Assembly (NCBI GenBank): GCA_019693395.1
Contig: JAAMXP010000453.1
Location: forward strand, 35,631 to 75,464
DNA: 39,834 bases
DNA from: Ettlia oleoabundans
Lineage: Eukaryota; Chlorophyta; Chlorophyceae; Chlamydomonadales
Direction of reading: 5' to 3'
The position numbers and the translations under genes are program-made. Under the pieces are notes generated by a model. The model ran no database searches. It had not been told where the DNA came from and was given only the letters and a program-made list of their open reading frames with translations. Shown piece by piece: positions 2,087-28,867 of this stretch (position 1 is the first letter of the stretch; every line of letters starts with the position of its first letter).

Positions 2087-3108
2087 CACAACCCTGGTGG
2101 CATCAACCGCCACACTAAGTGGTGGTATCTTGCGGATTTCATTCCCCTGCTGTTGCGCCTGCATTGAACCTTGCAGTCAGCGTGAGCAGCGAAACTGCCT
2201 GCCTGCCAACCCACCTGGGTCTGCTGGGAGCCTCTCAACTGGAAAGTTCATTCTTTGCTGAACTCTTCACTGAATGCTTGTCTCTTGGTTTGCGGCTCTT
2301 AAAGTTTGACGTAAAAGAGTTACACACAAGCAAATAGGTGGGACATGTCGTTAGAGGGAGTTTCAAGGGGGGGGCATCAGGGACATTATCAATGCCTGTA
2401 AGAGAGAGGGTGAAGGTGGGAGTGAGCGGGCACGACGGCAAGGTGGGAGACGCAAGGACAGACGGAGCACAGTGAGTCACATTCGTCGACAGCAGCGGCA
2501 GCAGGTAATCGGTGGGGCGTGGGGGAGCACAGCATGGTTGGGTGGTAGTAGTGCAGCGCGAGAAGGTGTGTCGTGGCGCCGCCACCAATACATGCGAGTG
2601 CTCTGCCTGACTGCGGCGTGCGCTGCGGTAGAAAGAGTGGGAGAAAGCATGACCAAGTGTAAACAAGATGCCGGGGGGCTGCGTCATTCTGGCAGCGCCA
2701 GGGGAGCAGACCAGGTGGTTCAACCGCCCGGGCCAGGGACAAGGGGCATGATAGAGAGGCTCAGCTATTGAGGGGAGGCGAATGGCGGGAGTCAAGCGCC
2801 TGATCACTCTTCAGCCTGGTAGGACAAAGGGACCTCTTTTAGAGGGAATGAAAGGGGAGGGGAGGGGTGGAACAAGGTACAGGCGTGTGGGCACATCCGG
2901 TTGTTGCTCGTGGTAGAAGCGTGATTTGCTCCTGGTTCATTCGTTTGTTGTAAGTGGGGGGGCAGTGTGGCAGGTGCACCAAGGCAGAAGGCAGCCTGGC
3001 AGGACCAGCAGGGCTCAGTGCCGGATAATCGCAGTCCAGCAGCCAGAGAGCCTCAAGCACGACCGCTGCAGTGACGCCCAAAAGCAGGCAGGTAGGCAGG
3101 CAAGTGGG
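2087..3108. other. Convergent spacer holding the 3' UTRs of COG5 and the HPt gene
   Basis: No coding exon could be supported here: the open frames lack splice-consistent partners and show no family resemblance. Both flanking genes end into this 1 kb spacer, so it should hold both 3' UTRs. A TGTAA lies at 2397-2401 on the plus strand. A reverse-complement copy (TTACA) at 2320-2324 could serve the minus-strand gene only with a very long 3' UTR. A short GCAGGCAGG repeat lies at 3084-3102, just after the HPt stop. Confidence 0.5.
2397..2401 (+). promoter_or_regulatory. Candidate TGTAA polyadenylation signal for COG5
   Basis: TGTAA is the common chlorophyte polyadenylation signal. This copy lies about 310 bases after the COG5 stop, a normal 3' UTR length for such algae. 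A five-base motif is expected by chance about once per kilobase, so the call is weak. Confidence 0.3.
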
Positions 3109-4060
3109 TTATCGCCCGCCTGCCTGCTTGCGTTGATTTTCAAGGGCCATGAATTGCTCCAAGCGCGCCTTGAGCACAGCGAAACTGTTTCGCAAATGCT
3201 CAACCAGCTGCTGGCATGCGGGCTGGTTGTGGGCGTGGCAGGCGTCCCGTAGCTGGACACACAGGGTGGCCATGGTGTGGGCGCCAAAGCTGGCGCTGCT
3301 GCCCTTGAACTGGTGCACGAGTGCATCGATCTGCATGCGGCAGGGGAAGGAGGGAGCGGGAAGCAGTTTAAGTGGCATCAGGCAGAGCCCACAATGGCAT
3401 GTTGGTCCAGCTATAATAGGAAGAACAAGTGAGCCAGGTGTGTTGCCCATGCTCGCAGGCTGGGAAAGCAACGCTACTGCGCAAAGATGCCTAGCTGCGT
3501 GCCGGACACAATCTGCACATAAACCACTCCTGATGAAAAATGTGGGGTGATACCTGGCAAACAGACCTGTCCGTAGTTGGGCACGGGTTCTTGCAGCTTC
3601 TGCTGCAGCGTGTCGATCTTGGCTGCACTGTCCTCAAAGTAAAGCTCCACCACTTCGGACACAAAGTCGGGGTTGCTTTCATCCTGCAGTTGATGCAAGG
3701 GCGTGCGTGCTTGTGTGTGGCATATCAGGCAGCAGGGCAGGCATACAGGCCAGCATTGACAGAACCCTAACGTGCATGCCTCGCCTGGGCAAATTGCTGC
3801 ATATTGGCGCTCTGCAAGCTGCTCTAAAGCTAAGCAGAGGCAATTAAGGCAGCCTGGCAGGGATGGCGGCAACCCGGAGCCAGCAACCTGGTGGAGGCCG
3901 CATGCATTGACCCATGCATGCTGCCTTGTCTCTTGAATTTAACTGAGCCTGTCACCTGCAATTGTATCAGTTGCAAGAATTGGTCATCCAGCAGGCCCTC
4001 CTGCACTGATTGCGCCAACAGTTGCTGTATCGCCTGAGCAGCGGCGGCAGCGGGGTCCAT
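3109..4060 (-). CDS. Histidine-containing phosphotransfer protein (HPt/AHP type)
   Basis: Phosphorelay carrier that accepts a phosphate from the receiver domain of a hybrid histidine kinase and passes it to response regulators, as AHP proteins do in plant cytokinin-type signalling. Exons on the minus strand are 4060-3956, 3683-3567 and 3330-3109, all in phase 0, giving 147 residues, the usual AHP length of about 150. The sequence follows plant AHPs closely: LLDDQFLQLIQLQ at the end of exon 1, then DESNPDFVSEVVELYFEDS, and the active-site motif HQFKGSSASFGA with phospho-acceptor His80. The conserved Lys and Gly follow the His, so it looks active rather than a pseudo-HPt. It has no signal or transit peptide and should be cytosolic/nuclear. 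The ATG at 4060 opens a short Ala/Gln-rich N-terminus. The ORF is short but its three exons match the family end to end. Confidence 0.94.
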
Positions 4061-4836
4061 GGGGATGGCCGCCCGCGCGAGCTATGCTTGCTGGATGACT
4101 CTCCGACCGCTCCTGCGCCTCCAGTTGAGGACGTGTGCCCCGGTGCACACGCCTCCACACCCCTAGGACAGACCCGCCGGTCGGACACTGGACGGCGCAG
4201 GCTAGCCTCCGAAGCTTGGAAGAATTAAATAAGTTTGGATTAGAGCTACAGGATGTAGGTCCTGCAAGGTCTCACTTGATTGATATCTGGGGAGATTTCG
4301 TCAGAACAGCGGGAAGAAGGTGTCAGCGTTTGCGCCGACAGCCCCGCTGATTTACTCCACCAAACAGTGCCTATCTGAGACAATATCCTAGTGCAACTGA
4401 TACCAACAAAATTTAGCGCGCTGGATGAAGCGGCAGCCCGTCCTCAGCGCGCGCGCTTGCGTCAACCCAGCTCCCTAGCCAGTTACAGCTTGGTATGTGG
4501 CAGGCAGAAATGTACGCAGCACACTCTGTCCGCGGCTGAGGGGTCAGGCGCCGGAATGTTGGAGAAGTGCCGCTAGCGGCACTCCTGGTTGTGTCAGAAT
4601 ATCAATCAGTATCAGGTCTTGGAGGGAGGTTTACAATATGTGCAGCCCAAGGGTCCCAAAGGAGATATGAATCTCATGTTCAACATTAACAGTGGCTCAA
4701 GTCGCGCTTTGATACATCCACACGGAGGCGATGCGGGCGCATGCATTACAACTGCTTACTTTGCATCACGGCAGCATCCACATCCACGCCTTTGCAATCA
4801 CATGCCTAGCCTGTTCTGGCCAACGAAATCCTTCTT
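4061..4836. other. Spacer: HPt promoter side and FAS1 gene 3' UTR
   Basis: No coding exon is supportable. Both flanking genes run on the minus strand, so the left part should hold the HPt promoter and 5' UTR and the right part the 3' UTR of the secreted FAS1-like gene. Minus-strand TGTAA copies (TTACA on plus) occur at 4746-4750, 4631-4635 and 4483-4487. A perfect 18-base palindrome sits at 4566-4583. No obvious TATA element decides a start. Confidence 0.45.
4631..4635 (-). promoter_or_regulatory. Candidate TGTAA polyadenylation signal for the FAS1-like gene
   Basis: The minus-strand TGTAA lies about 200 bases beyond the stop at 4837. Copies at 4746-4750 and 4483-4487 are alternatives. Confidence 0.3.
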
Positions 4837-6845
4837 TCAGTATACGCCTTCCACCTTGTCCACATCATGGATCACGTGCACTACACTGCCACCGGCCTTA
4901 AGGTTGACCTGGCCAGGCCTAGGGGACAGCTGCATGTCAGGGGAGTGGACAGATGCAAGAAAAGCGCAAAATTTCAATACTGCAGTGGGTGCCGTGCCAG
5001 TGAATTGACTGGAAATATTTCTGACAAAGACTTGCATAAATACATTCTATCATCTACCGTACCCCCTCAACCCACCCCACCCACACAGTGCCGGCCCCAA
5101 GCCAGCTTCCTACGCACCTCTCCGACGTAGATGAAGCCCACGATTTCGTAGTCGCCAGCTGCATCAGTGCGGAGCTGCAGGAAGGGCACAAAGTTGGGGC
5201 AGGCTCATGCAACAAGCGATGGGTTCATTGGCATGCCCCCCAGTCCTCGCGTTGATGACTGTTGCCCAAATGCAGCATGCAATTTCCACGAGTGTTCCTG
5301 AACAGGCAGGCAGGCAGGCTTACATGAAGGACATTGGGCTTGCCATTCTGGACAAGAACAGTGTCAACTGGGATTCCGGCCTGAGGGTAGGGCGGCCTGC
5401 ATAGACAGTTGAGAAGTGCGTCCAGCTGACGTCAGCATTTGGGGGACAGCAAACCCAGACGTGTGCCCAGCCATTTGCACGAGTGTGGCCACGTTGACGA
5501 GGTGAAAGCCACGCTGTGAATCCCGCAACCATACCAGCAGCCTATTGACTGCCATGCTGAGCTTCACTGCCATTCTGCACCGGCCCACCACCCATTCCCA
5601 CCCCTCGTGTGCTGACCAGCACTGGCGCCGCCTCACCAGAAAGCAGTGGTGTGTGGTGCTTGCAGCTGGTGGTTCTGCATACGACCAGGCCAGGGGGTGG
5701 CACGTGGGCAGGTGTTGCATACCGATTTGGCATACGGTTGCGATACCCTCTGCCTATTTGTATTAGTGGCACCAGGGATACACCCAACAAGACCTACTGG
5801 GCAGCAATGATGATCAAAGCAGCCTGCCCGTTCATCCCTGCACCCTGCACTCCCAGCCACGCATCTGTTTATCATCCATCCTGCCACCTGCCTTCCTCCC
5901 CACTATAGCCAACCACCCACCAGCAAGATCTGCTCGACCAGGGGGGTGTTCATGAAGAGGGCGTCGACGGAGTGGTAGTTGTAATGCCTGGCCAGGTCCA
6001 GCCAGGCCTCGTCTGCAGTTACAAGGCCAGGGACCCGGGTCAGCATCAGGTCTCGGGTGATTAAGGGTTCAAACAGGGATTGGGTCCCAATCAGGAACAC
6101 TACGTGGTGTTTTAGTCATGGGATAGGGACATCATGCGACCCAGCAGGGCGACAGCAGTGGCGGCCAGGCTCACTGTCCATGGCAAAGAAGGTCCTTTTC
6201 AGGGAGCCGTTCATCATGCTCTTCTCCAGGTTTGTGATCTGAAAAGGGGGAAAACGCGAGAGACGGAGAAATCGAGTTCGGGGCAGGATGATGTTTGACA
6301 ACTGTGGCAGTTGAGGCAGCTATTACTAAGGGATAAGATGCCCACCCGAGCACAGCGCGCTGCTGCGCAACTCCCCCGGCAGTATGCGGACCTCATGCCC
6401 ACCCAGCAAGGCAGCCGCACCTCCAATGCTGTGCGGGTGTACTCCGTGACGCTACCCAGTTTCACCAGAGCGTCCCAAATGTTGTCTGAATACATCGGCA
6501 AAGCGGCCACGTTGTCTTCCTCAGCACGAGCACCTGCACCAACGGGGGAAGCCAGGCGCAGGGGCGGGCGGCGGCAAGCCAAACTGGGCAGATACCGTAT
6601 GTGCAACTGAAGTTGCACGAACAGTGTGATTACGCATGTATCTCGAGCAGTTGTACGGGGGGGCACCGGAGCAAACAAGCCCCGGGACGCGGGACGAGCG
6701 GGCCGGATGCATCTCCGGCGGGTGCGATATCAGCCGGTTCCAGCGCTTGCAGGGTGGATCCTGCATGCAAAACTTCTGGAAATCCGCACCCACCTGCAAG
6801 TGCTAGCAGAGCCAGCACAGCGGTGCACAACATGCGGACTGCCAT
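4837..6845 (-). CDS. Secreted single-domain fasciclin (FAS1)-like protein
   Basis: Seven exons close in frame: 6845-6794, 6533-6421, 6238-6175, 6012-5921, 5380-5324, 5174-5118 and 4908-4837, giving 168 residues. The N-terminus MAVRMLCTAVLALLALAG is a typical signal peptide with likely cleavage near Ala17-Ala19, so the product is secreted or enters the endomembrane system. The rest has the length and landmarks of one FAS1 domain: NIWDALVKLGSVTEYTRTAL (start helix), RTFFAMDNEAWLDLAR where FAS1 proteins have a TVFAPTDEAF-like motif, and GGSVVHVIHDVDKV where they have NGVVHVIDxVL. FAS1 domains mediate cell-surface and cell-wall adhesion. The conserved His after the first block appears as ARHYNYH, and no GPI tail or proline-rich linker is visible. 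Two exons are only 57 nt. The family call rests on motif memory, not a search; an unrelated small secreted protein is the alternative. Confidence 0.72.
5303..5320. repeat. (GGCA)n microsatellite beside a splice donor
   Basis: Four or so GGCA units lie in the FAS1-like gene intron, directly beside the donor of the exon ending at 5324 (minus-strand gtaagcctgcctgcc). It resembles the repeat next to a donor in the acetyl-CoA synthetase gene. Confidence 0.6.
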
Positions 6846-7724
6846 ATTTATGTTCCGTTCGCCCCGGTTCCGCAATGAACAACAGGAGTTGATGTTGAGA
6901 CAGCTAATAATGGAGTACGTGTGTGTATCCGGTCGGGGTCGCGCGGGATGAAATGCAGGGCTGCTCAGCAGCACAGCATGCGCCAGCTGGCACAGGACTT
7001 TCTGCCGCTTGCCTACTGGTGCAGTGGCCGGGCAGCAAGCCCGGTAGAATAAGCCAGAACTCAGGGCGGTGGTACTGCAACATGGCCTCGCAGCGCTGTC
7101 AATTTAGTTGTTACTTCAGTATCACTGGCTGGACAAGTGCTAGCAGTGCAAGCAGCATGACATAGCATTGAATGCAAGTGATCTGATAGATATAGAGGAC
7201 CGTCCTGGCAGCGACAAGGAACCAATAATGAGAATGAGTACAGATTAGGTGTGCATGCAAGCTCGAGGAGTGCAGAGACACATGAATAGGAGATGGAGCA
7301 AGTGATGTGCGCAGTAAAGGTGGTGCAGTTATGATTAGTGGTGCCTGTCAGGAACGTGCACAGAGATACATACGAGAGAAGATGGATCATAAATGCGGCA
7401 AGTGACGGCAAAAGCAAGCAACAGAATGCAGCAGTGCAGTGTCATGGAAGCAAGCAAAGGCTGCAGGTTGCAAGCCGTCAACCAGGTGGTGTGACGCCAC
7501 ACTAGGAGAATTTGCTGGCGCAACAAAAGGGAGCGATCTTGAAAGATCATGAGTCAGTCGAGCCAGCCAGCTTGTGGGTCCGCTAACCTGAACTTTAAAC
7601 TGACCTTCCAGCTGAGAGCGGGGTGTCATGGCTTGGCTACCAGCACTCGAACCGGGCTGGCTGCGCAGGTGCGTAGCCGAGGCTGGAAGCTGGTTCAGGA
7701 TTGACCAGCGGTTGGCCATCTATC
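6846..7724. other. Spacer: FAS1 gene promoter side and acetyl-CoA synthetase 3' UTR
   Basis: About 880 bases between two minus-strand genes. The open frames here give no recognisable protein and no splice-consistent chain. It should hold the 5' UTR and promoter of the FAS1-like gene on the left and the 3' UTR of acetyl-CoA synthetase on the right. I found no minus-strand TGTAA in it, so the polyadenylation site of the synthetase is not identified. Confidence 0.4.
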
Positions 7725-10700
7725 TCACTTGCCACGCAATTCTATCAACGTCTGCACCACACTAGGGTCTGCCAGTGTGGATGTGTCTCCCAGCTGATCC
7801 TCCTCAAAGGCAGCAATCTTGCGCAGCACGCGTCGCATGATCTTGCCAGACCGCGTCTTGGGCAGTCCGGGAGCCCAGTGGATGACATCAGGTGCGGCAA
7901 AGGCGCCAATCTGCTCCCGCACGGACATCACCAACTCTTTCCGCAGCTCTTCGCTACTCTCCACATCCTGGGCGGAAGGGAAAACGGCACAAGGCATAGG
8001 AGCGTTGACAAAGGAGGATTGCACAAGAGAAGCCACGTGGCCGGTGCCATGCAATTGCGGCGCAGGCCCGCCCATATGAGAGTTCTCAAGCTGGCACATG
8101 CTTCTTGTGCTGCCCTTATCAGTGTGTCTCTGTGCGTCCAGCAGCATGCATGACCTGTTGCCCTGCGGTATATCTCACCTCTAAAAGGGTCACATACGCC
8201 CATATGCCCTGGCCTTTGACTGGGTGCTCATAGCCCACCACTGCTGCCTCAGCACATTTAGGGTGAGCCACCAGTGCGCTTTCCACCTCTGCCGTGCCGA
8301 TGCGGTGGCCGCTCACGTTGATCACATCGTCCACACGGCCTGCAGCTCCCAGAAGCGGTGGCAGTGGGCTGTATTGAAAACAGGGTGAGAAAGGGCAAAC
8401 ACGAGGACGCAAGGGGCAAACAGCCTGCTAGTTCCTGCAGGCTGGTGGGTACGCTCCAAGCAGGGAAGGAACCAATGATTGTGACAAATGCGCACGGCTG
8501 CTCTCCAGCTGCAAATATGTCCTTTGTCGGGTTTTGGTGCCCCACAGCACACCGCAGAGCAGCCAGTTTAACCCCAACCCAGCCCATGGCCGACACACAG
8601 AGCACACCACCTGTGATCCAGTAGTAACCATCGGCATCTCGCCGTGCGCCGTCCCCACTAAAGTAGTAGCCAGGGAAGGGCGCAAAATAGGTAGTCTCAT
8701 ATCGTTCATGATCGCCATACACTGCACCACAGGGCAGAACGCAACACCGCAGCACTGCTGGCCCAAAGGACGTGTGCGCTGCTGCATGGCCAGACCGCAG
8801 CCAGTGCAATAATTGCAAAATAAGCATGGCTCAGCATAGCTGCCCCACAGAGCACGACAATGACACTGAAGCAAGGATGAAAAAGCCAGCGGCTGAGCTA
8901 AGGCCTGCAAATATGACACTGCCTCACAAGGGTCCTTCAAGCATGGCTTGCCTGTGCGGATGTTTGAGGGCCAGGACTGGGCAATGCACAGGTAGCCCTC
9001 TGCCTGGCCTGCGGAGCGAAGAGGCACATTTGCAGACGGAGGGTGCAGGGCAAAGTCCAGCGTGTCAAAGCAACACATCAGGAAAGCGCCAATAGGGGCA
9101 TACTGTTCCCAGACTGCTGAGCATCGTCCCAGTGGCTCCTCTGCTATCTCATGGAGGTTCTACAGCAGTCAAGGCGGAAGGTTCCAGAGCACCCATCGCC
9201 GCAGGGCTTACCCTCAAGCTCCTGCCCGTTCTCGTCCACCAGCGCAGGCTTGACACCAAAGAACGGCAGTGTGGCTGCAGGGGCAATTTGTAAACAAAGG
9301 GTTAAGACAGGAGCCAGCGGAAGGTGGCATCGCAACTGCGACAGCTTTTGGGGTTGAGGTCTCAGATGTAGTGGCTTGAAGGGAGTAAATGTTGGCTGTG
9401 CCACCACACTAAACCCCAGGACGTGCAGTTGAGGCAACTAAAAACACATACCGTATGCTGCTTACCTGATCCTGGCTTCTCAGGCCAGGCACCCGGCAGC
9501 GGTGTGATCATGTGACCAGCTGTCTCTGTCTGCCACCAAGTGTCGACAATGGGGCACCGTCCACCACCCACAACCTGCGGGATGCGCAAGGATGTCGGTG
9601 AGCATGCAAGGCAGGGCAATCTGCAGAGCGATCTGCAGCAATGCCAGCCTTCCCACCCACTCCAGACAGCCAGGTAGCCCCCTTCGCTTAGCCAGCCGGC
9701 ATCGAATTGCGCAGCATCTGATCCGCCAGCACCCTGCCCACCTCGTGATACCTGCACAGGAAAAGGAGATGGGACGGGCAGAATTGCAACGTCAACATGC
9801 TGATGGAACCAGGCAGACAGCTGGCAAAAATACGACACGCGTGTCAAGCCCAAAATGAATGTCACCTGCCGCACAAACGGCGCAGAAGTAAGCCAAGCAT
9901 TGCAGCAGGACGTACTTTAACCAGTCTTTGCCAGCCCAACAAGCACCCCAGCTCAACCAGTCGCCAGCTGGATTGTTGGAAATTGGAGCACCAGCCCCCT
10001 TCTTTCTGGCTGCCTACCCACCAGCGCCAGGCCTCAGGGTTGATTGGCTCTCCCACGCTGCCCAGAATACGCAGGCTGCTGCGGTTGTACTTCTTCACCC
10101 AGTCGTCCCCGGACCGCATGAGGGAGCGGATTGCGGTTGGGGCAGTGTAGAACTGCGTAACACCACAGTGGCATGGGAGGGCATAGTGCAGTGAGACATG
10201 CGAGCAGAAGCCAGGTAGTGCTTTGTAGCCACCAAATCAATGGATCAAGGCGGGTACGCCACCTATGTGTGGGATCAGAGCGGACAGGAGGAGCTGCAGC
10301 AAGGGCGACGGATGAGCTGTCAACAGACCAGCGCAAGGGCCAAGCCAAGCACCGCTTGTCAGCGCTGTAACTCCCACCTGGGTGACTTGGTACTTGTCAA
10401 TTACTTCCCAGCAGCGCCCAGGGTTGGGGTGGGTGGGCACACCCTCAAACACCACCTGGGTGGCGCGGTTCAGCAGCGGGCCGTAAGCCAAGTAGCTGTG
10501 GCCTGCAGGTGCACCCAGCAGAACCACATGCATACATTGATTCAGGCGGGAAGGAATACGCGTTGTTGACTGGGAGAGAGCCAACAGGTGGATGGCGAGA
10601 GATTTCTGCAGATACTACCAGGCACGGTGCTACCAGTACTAGGTGTGAACATCAGTCGCAAAAGCTGCTGCGCATCCAGCTTGCCGCCCCCTACATACCC

Positions 10701-15147: not shown

Positions 15148-17098
15148 ATGGCAGACGAGGAGCACAGGTGGGCCGCGGCAGGAGGAAGGAGGCGCGTTAG
15201 ATGGGAGCGGTGTGGGTGGGTGGCTGCATCAGAGCAGCGGGCGTCTCATTAAGAGCGGTGGTTTGATGGCGGGAGAACAACGCTGCATCGGCTGCCGCTC
15301 ACTCACGACACGCCTCTGCTTCCTGCGGCAGGCCTCCATGGGGGTCTGCCGCGGCGCGGGGTGCGGGGCACATGAAAGCCGGCGCGGCCGCTGCGACCTC
15401 CGCTGCAGCACAGCTCGGGGGTGTGGGTGTGGTGGTGGGGCCCAGCCTGAACCTTTGCGGCGCTGGAATATTGCTGGTGTGATCAATCGGTGTGAGATGG
15501 TGGCACAGGTCGGCTGAGGGGGAGGAGGTGCTGACAGCGGCTGAGGGGGCGGCTCCAGAGGCGGCAGAGGCTCAGGTAGCTGAGGCGGCCCAGGCAGAGG
15601 GTGCCGTTGCGTCAGAGCTGGTGCAAGAGGTAAAGGCAGCAGACCCTAAGGCGTACGCGACCGAGAACCAAGCACCCACGGACAACGACAGGGCCCGCTC
15701 CCGCAGCCGGAGCAGGACCAGGAGCCGCTCGCGGTCGCGCTCTCCCCGCAGCCGCAGCCGCTCGCGGGACCGGCGCTCTCGCACCCGCTCTCGCAGCAGG
15801 TGACGCCACCCTTACACGAACATGCAAGCATTAGCAAACTACATGCTTGCTAGGCATTTCGCATACGCACGACTCAGTTGTTTTCAGGGAGCAAAAGCCG
15901 CCTGTTTTTCCACACAATCTACCTTACTTGTATGGCATCATATCCTGCCAGGCAACATCATCATCTGGCAAACATCACCTGACACGCACCGCCATCGCAT
16001 TCGACTGCAGGGACAGGCGCGACGGTGGGCACCACTACGGTGGTGGCTCCGGGGCCCCACAGTCCTACGATCGCCCGCCGCCACGCGAGCAGGCCTGGCG
16101 CCAGGGCGACTGGGAGTGCCCATCCTGCCGCTTCCACAACTTTGCCAGTCGCGACCGCTGCTTCAAGTGCGGTAAGTTGCGCCAGCCCTCCATTATAGGT
16201 TGGCGCTGCCAGCCAGGGTCAAGCAAGCCACTGTTAGGTGGCCAGCCGTCCTTGGCCTGTTCCCCTCTGAGTTTGGATCTATCAACGCAAGTTGGGGTGT
16301 CTTGTCAAGACAAGAGGAATGCCTGCTGGCAGGCCCATGAGGTCAGATGCAAGCTGCATAGTTGCATCTTGTTGCTGTACTTTCGCAGTTGCTTCATTTT
16401 GCTTGTTTATTTTTTGCTGCTACGGCAGGTTCCGACAGGTCTGGAAACAAGAGCGGCTATGGTGGCGGCGGTGGTGGCTACGGCGGGTACGACCGCTATG
16501 ATGGTGGAAGCTATGGCGGTTATGGTGGGTATGGTGGCGGTGGCTACGGCGCCAGTGGTGGGTATGGCGGTGGCTACGACGCCAGCGGAGGCTACGGCAG
16601 TGGTGGCTATGGCGGGGGTGGCTACGGTGGTGGTGGTTACGGTGGTGGTGGCTACGGCGGAGGCGGTTACGGTGGTGGCGGTTACGGCGGCGGGGGCTAC
16701 GGCGGCGGGAGCGGTGGCTATGGTGGCAGTGGTGGCGCACCCAGGTGTGTGGCAACTGTCGGCAAGGCTCCCACTCCCTTTGGCTGTGACAGTTGCACTA
16801 TTTGCATCAGGCATTGGCTGGCGCGCTATGTGTGTGCCTCTGTCAGCTTTGCTGCGCTAGCCATGCATTTTTGGCCTGGCGGGTCAAGGCTGTTGGGACT
16901 GTGTCGGCTTTCACCTTGCTGTGCTGCTCAGCCAGCCGTGCTGGGGATCACCCTTGCGGAGGATCAACCTTACATGTCCATCTCAATTGCAGGCCTGCAC
17001 CTGCCTTCCGTGAGGGCGACTGGTACTGCAAGGAGTGCAACACCCACAACTTTGCCAGCCGTAGCAGCTGCTTCAAGTGCAATGCCCCCCGTGACTGA
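15148..17098 (+). CDS. SR- and YGG-rich RNA-binding protein with two RanBP2 zinc fingers
   Basis: Five exons (15148-15167, 15509-15799, 16011-16171, 16429-16744, 16993-17098) close in frame to 297 residues. After MADEEHR comes an acidic/Ala-rich part, then an arginine-serine region to about residue 103. The first RanBP2-type finger follows (W138, C140, C143, NF, C154, C157; spacing CX2CX10CX2C), then about 100 residues of Tyr-Gly-Gly repeats (158-262), then a second finger (W273, C275, C278, C289, C292) just before the stop. RanBP2 fingers of the ZRANB2 and FUS/TAF15 kind bind GGU-containing single-stranded RNA. The RS and YGG parts suggest a nuclear splicing- or transcription-linked protein able to condense. 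The two fingers share the sequence HNFASR. The first coding exon is only 20 nt. The low-complexity part makes the length likely to vary between strains. Confidence 0.88.
16459..16735 (+). repeat. Coding YGG/GGY low-complexity repeat
   Basis: Near-perfect repetition of GGTGGCTACGGC-like units encodes Tyr-Gly-Gly(-Gly) runs inside exon 4 of the RanBP2 zinc-finger gene. Third-position changes between units show that the repeat is partly diverged rather than freshly expanded. Confidence 0.9.
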
Positions 17099-17866
17099 GC
17101 TGCCTTGCTGGTCCTCCAGCAGCCAACCAAGCAGCAGGGCAAGCACAGGAGAATGCCCTCGTCCTACCTATGTGCTGCTGCAAGCGCTGTATGCAGCCAC
17201 ACCCAGATGCAGCAACAACTGGCTGTTAAATGCGTGTTCTCACCACCATCGTAAGCCTCCATCTTGTGAAGATTGTTTGGCAGACACTATGGGTGTCTCT
17301 GTGCTGCCGTTCGTCAATCCCGGCAGTGTGGTTTGTTGTGTTGTCTGTCATTATGTTGTCGGGTTATGGCTCCATCCACGTCTGGCTTCCACCCTGCCCA
17401 TTTTTGGTTTGAAGAACCTGTTCAAAATCCTGTGTTCATTCACTGTTTGTAATGCGCTGAAAAAGGCTGGAAGCAAGGTTGCTTTGTATGGGTGGCGGCA
17501 TGACTGATCTGTTGCAGAGATTGTGTTGCCATAGTAAGGGTTGATGACGTGCAGTGTTGGCACGCAGTAAGTTCTTCCCCCTGTCATTGACCTACAGCAA
17601 CTGGCTGCCCAACTCAGTAAATGACGAGCGCACATTACCTTGTGGCGCAAATTTCTCCCTCGTCAGCATGATTTTGTTTCTGCCCTTGCTTGTACCCTGC
17701 AATGCCACGCCTCTCATCGATATGAAACGTGAGATATGATCGTGACCCGCCGCTGGTGGGCAGGACGGCAGCGCGCCCGTGTGGCGGCGGCTGGCTTTGC
17801 ACTCTGGCAGCAGCGATTGTTGTAACCGTACTGCTTCCATTCTCTTCCCAACGTGCTACTGAGCCG
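17099..17866 (+). other. 3' UTR of the zinc-finger gene and promoter of the RS/K-rich gene
   Basis: A spacer of about 770 bases between two same-strand genes. No exon could be supported. A TGTAA lies at 17448-17452. The frame of the next gene stays open upstream of its chosen ATG to about 17729. Confidence 0.5.
17448..17452 (+). promoter_or_regulatory. Candidate TGTAA polyadenylation signal of the zinc-finger gene
   Basis: TGTAA lies about 350 bases past the stop at 17098, in a T-rich stretch. Its position fits a chlorophyte 3' UTR. Confidence 0.4.
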
Positions 17867-19961: not shown

Positions 19962-22900
19962 ATGAGGGCGCGGCAGGCAGCGAGGCTTTTTCTGCTACTG
20001 CTGCTGGCAATCTGCAACCGGAGATTCGGGGTGGGACAGCAGCCTGCGCAAGGTGAGGTCACCCAATGTTCCGCTGGTTCCGCTGGCAGCCGTATACACG
20101 GCGTCTTCAGAGCCTTCCCGGCGAACGCTGGATTACAAAGTGTTAGAGAGAGGCAGCCACATGCACGCGGAGGCAGGCTTGCCTCCCTTCCGTAGCGGCT
20201 TCGCAGAGCCGCCGAGAGGCAAGCGGCGAGCGCCCCAAGGCCATTAAGCCTGCATAGAGCGCTTGCCCAGTTATCATGCTCACTTATGGCGCTGTAGACA
20301 GTGAGGTAGCATCAGTTTCACATTGACTCTGCGCTGCCATGCTTGCAGAGGTCGCCGCGCTGCTGTCGCTGCCAGCGGCATGCAGCAACTGGGCGGCTGC
20401 GTCAGCCAACCTGCCAGGGGCGCCATGGCAGGAAGGCACAGACCCCTGCGGCGCCGCTGACGGATCCACGGAGGCATGGAAGGGAGTGCAGTGCAGTGCA
20501 GGGGGCAATGTGACTGAGGTGGTTCTCAGTGGGCTAGGCCTGATTGGCACGCTGCCAGCGCAGCTTTCGGCAGTTGTATCCTTGAAGCGTCTAGTCCTTG
20601 ATGGCAACAAGCTGCAAGGTGGGTGGAGCATTCATCCCTAGAAAGCAGCATGGGTGGGGATCACCTGCAGAGTGGGGCTTGTTGCTGCGTTTTCTTGTAT
20701 AACGAACAAGGATCGTGCTCCTGAAAAAGATGCCTGTGTTGCGAGTAAAGCGGAGATTCCTGTCACTGCTGCCGCCACGAAATGCGTTGCAACCCCTGTT
20801 GATCTGAAAATTATCTGAGTGTTATGATGTGTAAGATGTGCAGGCATGCTTCCCATGCCTCAGTGGACGGACCGCACAGCTTTCACTGGCGGCTCGACCA
20901 TCGTGGAGCTGCGCCCGGGAAACCCAGGCTTATGCGGTGAGCAGCCGGTGTGCCAGATGATGCCAGTTGGTGCCAGCGGTTGCGCTGGGTCATCCGAAAT
21001 GTGAGTGATGGCGAAAATTGTGTGAATGGTGGTGCCTCGTGCTTTCAGAACTTGCTTTGTGTCTGTGCAGGTCCCGTGATGCCCCTCGATCCGCAGCTCT
21101 TCCCAGAGGGGAACCTTGATCGCAATGCAACCCTGGTGCGGCGAGCCACCCTCATGCACCCTCATCACCGGTTGAATATGCGACCTGTGCTCTGCAAGGC
21201 TGCGCAATGGCCCAGCTGCCAAACCTCAACATTGGATTGCAGCCAATGCGGCAGTTGCGCCAGCTCAGCATCATCTTATGCCCTGGCTGCCGCAGATCCC
21301 AGCTGCCAACCTCATGCACACCGGGGAACAGATGACAACTCTCATAGTGAGCCCTGCTGTCAGTCGACTGTCACCCACGCTTTGTTGTAGATAATAGACA
21401 TTACAAAACCTGATACTCGCCATCCCCCAACATGTCCTTGCTTCTGGGTTGAGGGCCAACCTCTCCTTAGCATCCCTTTGCATCAACACTATGCTGTTCT
21501 TGTGCCTATTGACCCTGCAGCTTACACAACGCGACTTGCTTTCCCCAGGCACCAGCGTCACAGTCACCAACTGGCTTGGCTCCTGCATGATCCCTTGCGA
21601 CCAAGGTGGGCCTGGTACCCCTGCTGTGACATCCGGCACCCCGCTGCTGTGCGGCCCAACTGACAGCCGGTTGCTGTGCTGGCGACCAACAGTCGGTTGC
21701 GGTTGCTGCTTTAAAACAAGCCTTGTTATAAACGTCAACCGATCAGGCTGTCTCCATGCATCTCCTTTAGCACCCCTTACGTCGGTTTGCACGCCACTCT
21801 GCAGTGACAAACGGGCTGACACAAGCGCCGCCCGGGGTGGCGGCTGCCCGCCTTCCCTGGCCGCCTGCCATCACCACCAACATTTTTGACCTTAGTTGGA
21901 CTTACAACATGACGTGAGTGGGGTGTAAGCGGTGCTGGCTTGGCCTCAGTTAACATGAATTCCTCCCTCAACGTTGCCTACTGCACGTGGGCATTCGTGC
22001 TCGTGTAGAACGCCACGTGTAGCCATGATGCTCCCTGCTTGCCTTTGACCTGCTCTTGCAGCTGAGCCTCCACCCCGATATCTGTGCCATGCCTCCTGCG
22101 GGTTGTGCTGCAGTATGGCGGACTTGGTTCAGTTGAACCCAGATGCTGCTTGGATGCAGTCTGGGGAAATCTCGCGCCTGCCCTGCTACCCCTCCAAAGG
22201 CAACATTCCTTTCGCGTACTATGGGGGAGACGTGGCCTTTGGACAGGCAAGATTGGCCAGGCCCACTCGTGTTGCCTACTCGGCCTACTCATCACTCGAC
22301 TCCCCCGCTGTTGCCATTCATTTTGCATCAACCTTGGTAATGTTTAAGTGTTCTTGCGTGTTGTCTGTTGAACCGCTTCGCTTCTTGTTCCTGCAGTTTC
22401 TGCGCTTGCATGCGTCACTGATATGTGAGTCTGCTGAGCCATATTTACTGGTATCGTCACGCCCACATGTACTGGTGCAGTTCTCAGGAGGCAACCAGCT
22501 TCCGGGCGCAAAGGGCCTGCCAGCAGCAATGGCAGCCGCAAGATTGAATGCCAACATCCCCAACACGTGAGCATGCTGGCAAGCCAGCCAAGCACTGCTG
22601 GCCAGCGTACAAAGCGGCAAAGGATGGCTCGTGCTACCAGTGCAGCCCAAATACTGTTTCGTGGCATGTATTTGCAGTTTGCTCGCCATTCAATACTGCT
22701 CCCTGAATGATTTTCAAACACCATCATATCGATACCTTGTCTCTTACTACCTATGCCTGCCTGTTTGCTTGCCTGCCCATCTGCCTGCCCATCTGCCTGC
22801 CCACTTGCCTGCCCACCTACCTGCCTGCAGCTTCCACTGGCCCAGCATCTACACAGGCACTCCCGCCCCAGATGAGCTGGGTGGCGGTATCGTTCAGCCG

Positions 22901-25900
22901 GTGTACTGGTTTGTCGACCTCCTGGCCAACTACCACGTGAGTTGGGGCGTGGGCCCACAGCTGCCCACGGTCATCAATGCCTTTGTTTAGCTGCCAGCTG
23001 CTGGCTGCGGCATATTAGAGATGATGGCTGAGCCTCGGCTCGCAAGCTCTGCTGCCCTCTGTGCTTGGTTTCAATTATGTTTCTGAGATGTCATGCTGCG
23101 CTGCTTCTCGATTTTTTGAGCCGCTGTCTTGCATCCGTGTGCCTGCAGGTGTCAAATGTGCTGGTCACTGCGGGCGGGCCCACTTCCAATGCCTCCATAT
23201 TCATCGGCACTGACAGCACCTCCGTGGTCGCCAATACACTAGTGGCGGTGAGTTTTCCGGCAAGAGTTGCGCCCAGAACTTCTATTTTTTAGACGGCCCT
23301 GCCATGACCGGCCTGGCATCTGGGAAATTTGTCACAACTTACAACTCCTGGCCTGCATCTGTGCCTGCTTGCAGGCTGGAATCAACCTGGCCGCCGGCCA
23401 ACAGCTGGCATTTGCGGGGAAGGGCGTACTGGGCCGCTATGTTATTTTCTACACTGGAATGGCTGATGAGGTGCGTCAACCGTGCCTCTGTGGTGCTGCT
23501 CCCACCTCATTGCATCTGCACGGCGCTGCAATTTGTGTCAGCATTCTCTGGATCTGCCTGTCATAGCTGCCAGCGCATCCTGCCCTATGCTGCCCTATCG
23601 TGCCGCTCTCCTTCTCCGGGCCCCGCCAATCCTGCTGCTCCCTGGTCGTCCTGCAAACTGCAACCTCTTCCTGCTTGGGAGAAGGATGAGCTGCTGCTTG
23701 TACTGAATCACATAAGTGTAAAACGTATCTGCCACCCCTTGCTGCCTTTCCGCAGGGCATCATGAGCCTCGACGACATACAAGTCTACACATATGGTGGG
23801 TTCCGGCTCCTTATTGCTCCTACATTCTGTTCTACCCCCGCAGCAGTAGGTGGCAGCAGCCTGTCAGTAGTCTACTTCCAGCGGCGCTGCTGGTGCCTGC
23901 CTGTCTCTTGGCCCATCCAGCAACAGAAATGGGAGGCACACAGAGCATGCTCAGAAAGACTCACAGAGCATGCTCCCAGGCAGCCTCTGCTCCTCGCTTG
24001 CGCCTTGCCCACCTGGCCACACCCAATCATCCACACTTTTCCGTTTGCCTTGGTGGTGCAGAGGCCAATGCCGCGTATCGCAAGCCGGTAACAGCTTCAG
24101 AGCTGAGCAGCAACAGCAGTGCTGGCACTACCGCCATCAGCGGCAGCCAGAGGGATTTCTCGTCGCTTGAAGCACTGGTGGACAACAACGTCAGCACCTG
24201 TGTGTGGCTACAAGGCGGCACGGACAACAGCCCGGGTGCGCTCCCTGCTCGAGTGCCGGCATGCACTAAAAAGCCGTCGTTGCTTTGCCGACCTCAAAGT
24301 AAAGGTCACCTTGCTGTCTCCACCGGCCATCATGTGCTGATTCCTCGATTGCAACAACCAGCTGCAAACCACGGTGCGTGCTTTCAATCAACCGCTTTTG
24401 TGCAGCGTACGCAACCGTGGATCTTGGATATGTCGGAGCCGTGGGGTCTGTGGTGGCTGTGACTGGCCCAGACGTTGCGCTGGGGACCCAGTCTCGTGCC
24501 TATGTCACACAGACGGCCGATGAACCTCTGACAGATGCGGCAGCATGCAGCAGCGAGGGGCGGGAACTGTCTCCTGGCACCTGGACCGTGGGCGCGTGCA
24601 ACCGGCAGGGGCGGTGAGCAATAACGGGTGGTGCAAAAAGCTTGGTTGAAGGGGCGTGCACTTGTGCGGCATGCTGCACAGCTTGGTGCACCTCATCACA
24701 TCGTTGTGGGTTGACTGCCTCAAAGCTGTGCTGACCTCGTGCACCTCGGCTGCTGACTCGGCAAACTGCCCACATTTATCAGTCTGGTTGCCCTTACCAG
24801 TGTGCCTGTGCTGAGTTGTTTCTCTGCTGCTGCCTTGGGGCGCAGTTACATAACTTTCCAGTTGCCCGACACTGAGGGAGAAGCCAGGGTGGAACTGTGT
24901 GAGCTTCAAGTAGCCATCACCCTCCGGCCAGAACCACCTGGCAGCGGCAACAGCACCTTAAGTGGCAGCAGCAGCAGCAGTATAAGCGGCGGCGCCATTG
25001 CAGGCATTGTGGTGGGCGGGCTGGCGGCGTTAGCCCTGCTGTCGCTGCTGGCGGCTTACCTGTGGTGGCGGCAGCGCCGGCTTCGCCAACAGCGTGGGAG
25101 GGCAGCACTGGGAGGGGCCCAGGGATACGACCAAGATGCCTGGGACCGCCAGCATGCCGAGGATCTCAAGGGCGGCAGCAGCAATGGCAACAAGCCACCA
25201 GTGGACAATGGTGGCGGCAAAGGTGGCCAAAAGGCAGCGGCCGTGCCGCTCTCTGCGACTGATGTTGCTGGCGGCTATGGCGGCATGAATGGGAAGGACG
25301 TTGAAGATGTAGAAGCAGCAGCGGCGGCGGCAGAGGGCAAGCCAGGAGTTGGGGCAGCCAAGGATGGGAAGAAGGGGGACAGCAAGGGTGCACAGAGGAG
25401 GAGGCGTGGCTACGTGTCTGAGCTGGCGCTGATGCGAGAGTTTGTCCGGGCGGTGAGTGCCAATGTGCGGCGCGGGATGCTGCTTGCACAGGCACTGTTG
25501 TGCAGCGGATGGATAGGAAGCGCTTGCCTGGCTGGTTGCCTGTCGCTTATTGGCCTGACCTGGCCAGACACATCGAGAAAGCTGCTGCCACCTGAACTTT
25601 CCAATCCTCCATAATACATGCACCCTCCCTGTCTCCCACCCTCGCCAGCGGTGTGCCCCTCAAACCCACGCACACCGCACCAGCCCACCCCACCTCATGC
25701 TACTTGCTATCTGCAGCTGCTGGGCCGACGGACCTTGGAGGACTTCTCGGGCAACCTGATGCAGCGCAGCAAGACGGCCTCCGCCTTCTCAATATCCAGG
25801 GAGCACGGCACGGTGGGCAAGGCGGACACAGACCTCTCCAAGCTCCCGTCCGGCTTCTCGGAAGGTGAGGCACCTGCTCACCAGCGCGCTTGCATGCCGT

Positions 25901-28867
25901 GCATACCCCAGTCATCGACTGGCATCACGTGCTTGCACTTCTCCTCGGACACTCCATCCCCATATGGCATATCGAGATTCTATGTTGCCAGGCCTGTTTG
26001 CTTTACCGGCTGCTCTCCGGGAGGGTACGGCTAAAAATTCCGCATCGTTAGCAGGCGCAACTTGGCGTCCCCACGCTGTAGCCATTTTTATCTCACTTTC
26101 CCCTCTGTACTGTCTTGTACTTGCAGTCTCCCCTGCCGACATCCAGCTGGTGGAGATTGTGGGGGAGGGATCCTTTGGAGAGGTGCGCCTGGTGCAGCCA
26201 AACAGCCGCTGTTGCCAGGCTGGCTTTGCGATGGGCAGCTAGTTGTTGAGGGAGGCCTCAGTCTTCGAGTGGTTTCCCAACCCAGACCAGCCCCAACATA
26301 TCTGTGGCTGCCTGCACGGCTGCCCGGTCACTGCCATCGCCTTTTCACGTTTATGCCACTGGCCTTCACACTTCGCAGGTCTGGCTGGCCAAATACTGTG
26401 GAGCGCTGGTTGCGGTCAAGATCCTGGCAAAGGTGCGGCCCTGTGTTTTTTGGGTGGAGCCATCTCCCGGCAACAAGGGACCCACTTTGTGATGAGTGTT
26501 GTTGGTGGGGCTTCGCCTCGATTTCGGGCTGTTCAGGGTAGCGGATGCCTAATGAGTTGATGTAACCAACTCAGCAGTGTGTATGCCCACCACTACCTAT
26601 ACTTGCTCCTGGGCTTTTCCAAAGCTGTCCGCGCTCATTGTCCTCCATTGAATCTGATTGCACAGGTCAGCTGGGATACTGCATGCATGGTGTAACCACC
26701 AAGCTGCTGGCTATCTGGTGTTGCTCTCCCCGCAGATTGGCTCCGACAACATGACCTCCTCCATCCAGAACGACCTGCTGCTGCGGTCGCTCAAAAAGGA
26801 GGCACTGCTCATGTCCAAGCTCAGGCACCCCAACGGTGAGCAGACCCTGTGGTACCCATACCCTTAGCCCTGTGGTTGTGGTTAACACACAGTGGGAGCT
26901 GATACAGTGTTTTAAGTAGCAAGGGCACAGATACGAGTTGGCACTGCAACTGTGCTGCCCCTGGTCTCATTCAAGGCGTGCCGCCTCCGCTGAGTGCCTG
27001 CTTGCCTAGCTGCCACTTTTGCTTCGGCCATGAGCATTGCTAATGCCTTAGCCTTGGAGCCCTTTGTCCTCTCGCAGTCTGCCTGTACCTGGGTGCCTGC
27101 ACCGAACCCCCCAGCCTTGTGTTTGAGTACTGCGCCAAGTCCAGCCTGGACATGCTGCTGCGGGCGGGGATCAGGCATCCACAGGTGGGTGAGGACGGCA
27201 GCTCGGGTGGCTTTGGCCCTCCTCAGCAATGCGGGAGGGTACTTCTGCCAGCGCAGTCTCCCTAAACAATAAGGCATTAGACGCTCCCATGTGGCTGGCC
27301 CTGCTCGGCTGGTTCTGGCACGCACGCTAACTGGCGTGTCGCTACATGCGTTGGTGCATTTGTCATACAATCGACACACGGCAGACAGTGACTTATTGGC
27401 ACAAGGCTACCGCCTCCCTGCCTGTTGCACTCCATAGTGGGTTAGGTCATTTGTCCCCTGTTGCTGCAGATGGCCCGGCGGTTGACGTGGCCACGGCTGC
27501 TTGGGATAGCTCTTGACGGCGCCAAGGGCATGCTCTACCTGCACACGCGCGCGCCGCCTGTGGCGCATCGTGACCTCAAGAGCGCCAACATCCTGGTGGA
27601 CAGCCAGTGGCACGCCAAGGTTGCTGACTTCAGCTTGTCGCGGGCCATAGAAGTCAATACCCGGGCCAGCACTGTGGTGGTGACAAACCCCAGGTGGCTG
27701 GCTCCAGAGGTGCTCAACGGCATGCCGGGACAGCTGCCTGCCGACGTGTGGGCCTTTGGCACGGTGATGTGGGAGCTGATGACGTGGCGCCTCCCCTTTG
27801 AAGACCTCAACACCTTCCAGGTAGAGGGGGGCGATGCCGGCAACTTTGCTTGTTGCCGTGCGTGCGACCGGTTTACCGTTTCCGTTGTATCTTTCAGCAC
27901 ATTTGTTGTGGTTGGTGGTGCTGCAAGGCTGCGTGTGACAGGCCAAGCAACAGGCCATTGCATCCCGCATGCCGATGTATGCCCAGCCGTAAAGCCACAC
28001 CGCCGTTGCCATGCACAGCCCCGTCCTGCTTCCAGCTGCTTCTTCCATACCTGCCTAAGTCCATTGCAGATCATCTCCACAGTTCAACGTACCGGCACCT
28101 CTGGCCTGGCGGTACCGCCTGCGGAGGAGCTGGCAGCGGGGTCCTTCACGTGCTACCCGCAGTATGTGGCGCTCATGCAGGCTTGCTGGGCACAGGAGCC
28201 AGCAGCCCGCCCCAAGTTTGGAGCCATCGTGGAGCAGCTGAGGTGAGCTGGCAGATCCGATTCCGAATTCATGTTTCTAGTGCTAGCGGAGACTGCTTCG
28301 TTGCACATGTTGGGTTGTGCTTGTGTTGTATGGAGGTGCTTGTCAAACCCAAATGACTCCTGCGCCCACTTGATGGGGCCATCCCTTTGCTGCAGCCTGA
28401 TGCTTGCCGCGGAGCTTGCGCCCCAGCAAGCAGCAGCCGCAGCAGCCGCCAGCGAGATGCCTTCTGCGCAGCGCAGCCCGCCTAGAATGCCTAGCAGTTC
28501 GGTGCCACCACCCATTGCAAGGCCCAGCCCTGGCCGGGTCAAGTCCAAGGCGCAGGGAGGCAGCAGCCGGCGCGCCACCGCACGTGTTGCCCCCGCAGGC
28601 GGCCCGGGAAGCTCCACTAAAGCCAGCAGCGGCAGTGCAGGCGGTACAGGGGGCCTGGCCGCTGTACTGCCGCCGGGCATCCCAAAGGGCGAGGACCCAG
28701 GAAATGTGCCACGGGATAGTAGTGAAAGTGGGGCAGCTGCAGCGACCACAGTGGACCGCCGAGGTGCCGGCCCACCAGTGCCGCCACCCAGCGCTGTTGA
28801 GAGTGGGGGCAGCGGCTCCAGGCAAGGCACTTCCTCCTTTCAACTCCCCAGCTTGCCGCCAGGCTGA
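19962..28867 (+). CDS. Receptor-like kinase: LRR, two FTP-lectin-like domains, TM, TKL kinase
   Basis: Twenty-three exons close in frame to 1331 residues: 19962-20052, 20349-20618, 20844-20936, 21071-21346, 21549-21605, 21805-21913, 22114-22336, 22481-22566, 22831-22936, 23149-23247, 23375-23470, 23756-23795, 24062-24235, 24406-24613, 24846-25452, 25717-25864, 26127-26182, 26379-26432, 26736-26835, 27078-27184, 27470-27820, 28070-28242 and 28396-28867. Domains: signal peptide (1-25); LRR-cap-like part with WKGVQC, LSGLGLIGTLPAQL and GNPGLCG (31-151); Cys-rich part (152-300); FTP/discoidin-like domain 1 (about 338-515, YWFVDLL, GRYVIFY); domain 2 (516-666, YATVDLG, RYITFQLP, LCELQV); membrane helix (691-717); kinase (about 896-1174) with GEGSFGEV (907-914), AVK927, E953, HRDLKSAN (1033-1040), DFS (1053-1055), APE1080 and DVWAFG. 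A Pro/Ala/Ser tail follows. Exons 4 and 8 are the least certain. The likely role is sensing a cell-surface glycan or peptide and signalling through a RAF-like kinase. Confidence 0.85.
22770..22817 (+). repeat. 12-bp tandem repeat forming a splice-acceptor pyrimidine tract
   Basis: Four copies of tgcctgcccatc (the last two with one or two changes) run into tacctgcctgcag, the acceptor of receptor-kinase exon 9 at 22831. The minisatellite supplies the polypyrimidine tract. Confidence 0.85.

Follow-up and report, generated by a model that had tools for sequence, protein, structure and literature searches.

A candidate green-algal receptor kinase that combines LRR, LysM-like and tandem F-type lectin-like modules with a Raf-like kinase domain

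The LysM receptor kinases of land plants (CERK1/NFR type) combine LysM domains, a transmembrane (TM) helix and a cytosolic kinase in one protein. Arabidopsis CTR1, one of the Raf-like MAP3Ks, is cytosolic or attached to the endoplasmic reticulum, and has no receptor ectodomain of its own. Here we describe a gene of the green alga Ettlia oleoabundans, found at positions 19962 to 28867 of a 39,834-nucleotide stretch of DNA that we call the window (contig JAAMXP010000453.1; C161:35631-75464 in the genome assembly used for our searches, which holds 32.9 Mb in 1230 contigs). The domain order of its predicted product is a signal peptide, a short leucine-rich repeat (LRR) segment with a GNPGLCGP cap, a LysM-like module, two tandem F-type-lectin/discoidin domains, a TM helix and a Raf-like kinase. 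The CERK1/NFR type has three LysMs and a kinase of the RLK/Pelle (receptor-like kinase) type, whereas the window protein has one divergent LysM-like module, a Raf-like kinase, and LRR and F-type parts in addition. CTR1 and the Raf-like MAP3Ks are the best matches of its kinase domain, although here the kinase lies behind a TM helix.

Two animal systems also invite comparison. DDR1 and DDR2 likewise have two tandem discoidin-type domains, a TM helix and a kinase. However, theirs is a tyrosine kinase, whereas the algal one is a Raf-like TKL kinase accompanied by LRR and LysM-like modules; the likeness would be convergent. The fish lectin FBP32 (3cqo) has two tandem F-type domains, as does the window protein, but FBP32 is soluble, occurs in serum and carries the fucose motif, whereas the window protein lacks this motif and its domains lie within a predicted membrane kinase. 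Among the green algae, Chlorella variabilis NC64A has five LRR receptor kinases, which likewise join LRRs, a TM helix and a kinase of the receptor kinase group; these form a lineage-specific clade and their LRRs were likely gained independently of land plants (PMC3268121). By description only, they differ from our protein, as the relevant passages of that paper mention no LysM-like or F-type domains. A Chlamydomonas protein has the same pairing of LysM with an F-type (fucolectin-tachylectin-pentraxin, FTP) domain and is described, in the section concerned, without a kinase; the survey reporting it retrieved zero lectin receptor kinases from chlorophytes (PMC6362431). LysM-RLKs have been termed exclusive to embryophytes, with green algae being credited with G-lectin-, malectin- and WAK-RLKs (PMC10834447). 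Our literature search of open-licence PMC found no paper describing such an architecture, and the joining of LRR, LysM-like, tandem F-type and Raf-like kinase parts in one algal protein seems, from its sequence, an unusual combination of already known parts.

We read the gene product, with a probability of roughly 0.6, as a single-pass surface receptor kinase with an LRR, LysM-like and tandem F-type ectodomain, a glycan-type ligand and a Raf-like kinase output. The domain order, its conservation, the fold class and the intact catalytic Lys and Asp are the parts of this reading that the sequence supports. Placed in the membrane, the protein would bind an extracellular ligand through its ectodomain, most likely a wall glycan of the alga itself or a glycan of a microbe nearby, and this binding would cluster the receptors. 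The clustered kinase domains, of the CTR1/MAP3K type, would then phosphorylate one another and cytosolic targets, and surface recognition would thereby feed directly into a MAP3K-type pathway. Glycan sensing, which the preliminary description of this locus had proposed, is thus also what we infer. If true, a conserved chlorophyte LysM-like/lectin Raf-like receptor would be a second route to glycan-sensing kinases, and would offer a candidate, open to testing, for the way in which small green algae perceive walls, bacteria or ciliate hosts.

A search of 5.8 billion proteins returned four relatives that match over most of the length (P0001-P0004), and two further relatives (P0029 and P0030) were found with the ectodomain as query. 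An alignment search of proteins added one ectodomain-only protein (P0031), predicted without TM helix and kinase. Each protein search scored the roughly 8000 candidates with the most shared words, and the relatives found are therefore a lower bound; the alignment search was not exhaustive (P0004 and P0030 are not among its matches) and says nothing on absence from Chlorella or Chlamydomonas. The ectodomain is common to all seven relatives, and six of them also carry the kinase. These six have the same domain order and are 41-54% identical to the window protein across the whole alignment. Conservation is highest in the kinase (57-76%), intermediate in the ectodomain parts (LRR 47-54%, LysM-like 42-57%, block 1 42-63%, block 2 35-50%), and lowest, at 22-34%, in the TM helix plus juxtamembrane part. 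That ectodomain and kinase form one polypeptide, as earlier suggested, is borne out by the six kinase-bearing relatives, which join them on independent contigs. Three of these contigs leave little space for introns, holding 1243 residues (P0001, about 3.7 kb of coding sequence) on 4394 bases, 1148 residues (P0003, about 3.4 kb) on 3916 bases and 1287 residues (P0029, about 3.9 kb) on at most 5219 bases. They are therefore probably assembled transcripts that hold both parts, if their genes have introns likewise. P0002 and P0030 come from Micractinium tetrahymenae, which lives as an endosymbiont in Tetrahymena (PMC12516953), and P0004 comes from Micractinium sp. CCAP 211/92. A lineage-specific receptor, as previously suggested, is plausible in that the named full-length relatives are all Micractinium, within a set that is a lower bound.

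The splice sites of our gene model were set by homology to the relatives. The preliminary description had proposed a chain of 23 exons, and a stop-free splice of 19962-28867 does yield exactly its 1331 residues; however, the alignment to relatives leads to 24 exons and 1257 residues. The difference lies in two places. What had been called a Cys-rich part is the intron 21136-21295 translated as exon, together with a later acceptor for the following exon, while a 30-residue extension after FGQ, which we rejected, belongs to the GC-AG intron 22247-22480. Both are taken as intron because they are absent from the relatives; for example, P0002 has NPEQNQPLIPPANMMRTGDNMTHVILTQRNLFTPGT where exons 21071-21135, 21296-21346 and 21521-21605 encode NLDRNATLIPAANLMHTGEQMTTLILTQRDLLSPGT. 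The corrected model aligns to the relatives free of both insertions, and its 23 introns (22 GT-AG and one GC-AG) are 127-303 bases long. The features of the gene are as follows.

19962..28867, + strand: whole coding span of the corrected model (24 exons, 1257 residues); stop-free, aligned to six full-length relatives
19962..20052, + strand: exon 1, hydrophobic N-terminus taken as signal peptide; first in-frame ATG past an upstream stop
20349..20618, + strand: exon 2, LRR N-cap and first LRRs; 47-54% identity to six relatives over the LRR region
20844..20936, + strand: exon 3, final LRR and GNPGLC cap; splice model and alignment to relatives
21071..21135, + strand: exon 4, end of the cap (GPVMPLDP) and linker; the earlier exon continued to 21346
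21136..21295, + strand: intron formerly translated as the Cys-rich part; missing from relatives, corrected splice
21296..21346, + strand: exon 5, linker; splice model and alignment to relatives
21521..21605, + strand: exon 6, linker whose NxLGSC...C is invariant (C212 and C216 present in 7/7); earlier start at 21549
21805..22246, + strand: exons 7-8 (21805-21913, 22114-22246), LysM-like module, residues about 235-281; profile comparison
22247..22480, + strand: GC-AG intron, donor CAG/GCAAGA (slash at the splice point); its first 90 bases were earlier translated as 30 residues
22481..23795, + strand: exons 9-13 (22481-22566, 22831-22936, 23149-23247, 23375-23470, 23756-23795), bridge and F-type/discoidin block 1
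24062..24921, + strand: exons 14-15 and start of exon 16 (24062-24235, 24406-24613, 24846-24921), F-type/discoidin block 2
24988..25065, + strand: predicted TM helix, residues 617-642, then basic WRQRRLRQQR as a stop-transfer segment; hydropathy peak 2.48 at residue 620
25066..25864, + strand: juxtamembrane linker, remainder of exon 16 and exon 17; weakly conserved
26127..28242, + strand: exons 18-23, Raf-like kinase domain, residues 821-1101; PK_Tyr_Ser-Thr 170 bits, CTR1 best PDB match
28396..28867, + strand: exon 24, low-complexity C-terminal tail and stop; splice model

Separately from the coding parts, short CTGCCTGCC/CATCTGCCTGCC repeats occupy the 3′ end of intron 22567-22830, at about 22755-22830 of the window.

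The kinase had been described as complete and of TKL type, which agrees with the 170 bits that it scores against the Pfam model PK_Tyr_Ser-Thr. The best matches in a PDB search of the domain were to CTR1 (178.6 and 176.3 bits), followed by a chain labelled EGFR (137), MLK4 (121.4) and other MAP3Ks, with LCK at about 102 bits. The domain is thus closest to the CTR1/MLK/Raf group, the Raf-like MAP3Ks of the TKL class. No RLK/Pelle chain, the kinase type of land-plant LysM-RLKs, is among the best 60 of 2501 PDB matches, and the tyrosine kinase of animal discoidin receptors is not the type found either, the best matches being Raf-like or MAP3K. Five plant-type LRR kinases were just 25-28% identical (63.5-77.8 bits), compared with 171 bits for the Raf-like protein P0033. 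The family is grouped in the kinase tree with a support of 95/94; its deep placement has 49/78, with long branches. K853, E879, H959-R960-D961, N966 and D979 are invariant in the window protein and its six full-length relatives (7/7).

The two blocks that had been likened to discoidin and FTP domains are supported as a tandem fucolectin-like fold by both profile and structure comparison. A profile of six relatives (A2) matches FBP32 across both blocks with an E-value of 2.4e-9 and the lectin 1k12 with 1.1e-3, and the best sequence-profile matches overall are the lectins FBP32, 1k12 and Sm-hPAF. FBP32 is also first in a Foldseek search (2.0e-10), ahead of DDR1, the query being a low-confidence AlphaFold model. 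The Pfam model F5_F8_type_C_2 scores 26.3 bits on the whole protein, below its cut-off of 27.8, and 32.7 bits on the isolated two-block ectodomain, where the best stretch falls in block 2. Block 1, taken together with the part preceding it, scores 15.1 bits.

The module encoded by exons 7-8, which the preliminary description had overlooked, is one that we label LysM-like and not LysM. TNIFDLSWTYNMTMADLVQLNPDAAWMQSGEISRLPCYP and its counterparts in the relatives resemble the second part of a LysM. When the module was compared by hhalign with a LysM profile built from the same genome, the result was 93.2%, which points to profile homology; a rerun with other settings gave 42.4% and a score of 27.0, while 200 column shuffles scored at most 9.3 (<=0.5%) and the reversed profile 5.7. 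By HMMER, the nine family modules scored 4.5-9.4 bits against the LysM profile of this genome, scores that were matched by 0-2 of 150-199 residue shuffles per row. The reverse HMMER comparison found one of seven true LysMs no better than shuffles (73/162), and another was equalled by 5/189. Pfam LysM (PF01476) matches three of nine family members, the best at 19.6 bits and so below the cut-off of 20.9, and the window fragment has no match. There is no chain named LysM among the five matches of a PDB profile search with the module, the best being All3315 (E-value 0.019). Folded alone, the module gave helices only, with a low-confidence predicted local distance difference test score (pLDDT) of 41, where beta-alpha-alpha-beta is expected of a LysM.

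At the N-terminus the proposed signal peptide is partly upheld. The window protein has a short hydrophobic run, LFLLLLLAIC, judged by eye; however, it falls below the threshold of 1.6 in a 19-residue hydropathy scan, which is exceeded in five of the eight family members. The short LRR segment with its GNPGLCGP cap is confirmed by the spliced model and by the alignment to relatives. As in land-plant LRR receptor-like kinases, it has an N-cap and a GNPGLCG-type cap, and the LRR part of P0001 matches plant LRR receptors, MIK2 and FLS2 included. The Pfam model LRR_1 is above cut-off in P0001-P0004, and no LRR model is above cut-off in the window protein. The single membrane helix also stands, with a hydropathy peak at the equivalent position in seven of the eight family members, P0031 being the sole exception.

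Related loci in the same genome bear on how such receptors are assembled. Of the 17 matches found when the genome was searched with the ectodomain, all but two lie in the window gene (15); the others are on contig C1028. The locus on C1028 (L013, G000:C1028:3500-11050) has an LRRNT (35.5 bits), LRRs, a LysM-like stretch, an F5/8 piece that stays below threshold (22.3 bits), a TM-like GAIAG segment and an extra Pro-rich part of no Pfam family. A further locus on C592 (L031, G000:C592:11200-21100; matches 2513-5458 and 6754-9735) has LRR stretches, apparently in two successive sets, a TM-like GAIAGI segment and, with VADFNLSRA, a kinase of the closest type. The LysM-like and lectin parts have no match on C592, and L031 may be an LRR-only sister receptor of the window gene. 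The three loci together suggest a single LRR-Raf receptor frame in which modules can be exchanged. Four more kinase loci (L032-L035) have a kinase match only, with no ectodomain match in the stretch examined, and L029 and L030 gave no match. A genome search with PF22633 found three matches, all below threshold; the window gene, which is interrupted by introns, was not among them.

Several results weigh against a glycan receptor with an active kinase. The AlphaFold model has a mean pLDDT of 51.6, and the Foldseek TM-scores to FBP32 are 0.22-0.31. Discoidin-type folds also have proteins and lipids as ligands. The F-type motifs that we looked for were the fucose motif HX24RXDX4(R/K) and the calcium motif h2DGx, as given in PMC5712786. 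The fucose motif, in strict and loosened form, is absent from the first 720 residues of all eight family members, and the calcium motif is in the lectin blocks of none of the eight, its lone match in the window protein being at residue 66, outside the blocks. Fucose binding, earlier ascribed to the FTP-like domains, is unsupported because the published motif is missing throughout the family, and for this reason we rejected a strictly defined fucose-binding F-type lectin, or 'fucose receptor'. At the Gly of the kinase DFG motif (residue 981), five of the seven proteins have Ser and two have Asn, with the Mg-binding Asp retained; because the Gly is replaced in all seven, kinase activity is not certain. 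We think it unlikely that the receptor reads no sugar at all, with the discoidin-type blocks binding protein (as in DDR1 and neuropilin) or acting as spacers and the LRR binding a peptide, since lectins are the best profile matches and the adjoining LysM-like module points toward glycans.

The loss of the DFG Gly in 7/7, together with three putative wall-binding modules, would also suit an anchor for wall tension or adhesion, whose ectodomain attaches the membrane to the wall of the alga itself, the kinase being a pseudokinase or scaffold. This is improbable, as the catalytic K, E, HRD and DFG Asp are retained in 7/7 and no part is better conserved than the kinase. An artefact, by which the splice model fused an ectodomain gene to an adjacent kinase gene, appears very remote. 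It is true that the splice sites come from homology, that P0031 is predicted to lack TM helix and kinase, and that the C1028 contig ends after ectodomain and TM-like segment, ahead of any kinase. However, block 2 ends within exon 16, and this same exon continues through the TM helix into the juxtamembrane part. The joined protein also recurs in the six relatives, and on these grounds we rejected a two-gene artefact. Returning to the glycan receptor, a wider evolutionary scenario is conceivable but more doubtful than the receptor itself. Chlorophytes may, independently of land plants, have evolved LRR-capped LysM-like and F-type receptors joined to a Raf-like MAP3K, with lectin modules being swapped within the genome (the window gene, the LRR-only locus on C592 and that on C1028) while the LRR/TM/kinase frame was kept; the ligands would then be microbial or ciliate-host glycans.

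Ten open reading frames adjoining the gene gave one Pfam match. Upstream, a RanBP2-type zinc finger (PF00641, 30.5 bits) at 15835-17504 of the window lies near a long Gly-rich reading frame, and the two are perhaps parts of one FUS/TAF15-type RNA-binding protein.
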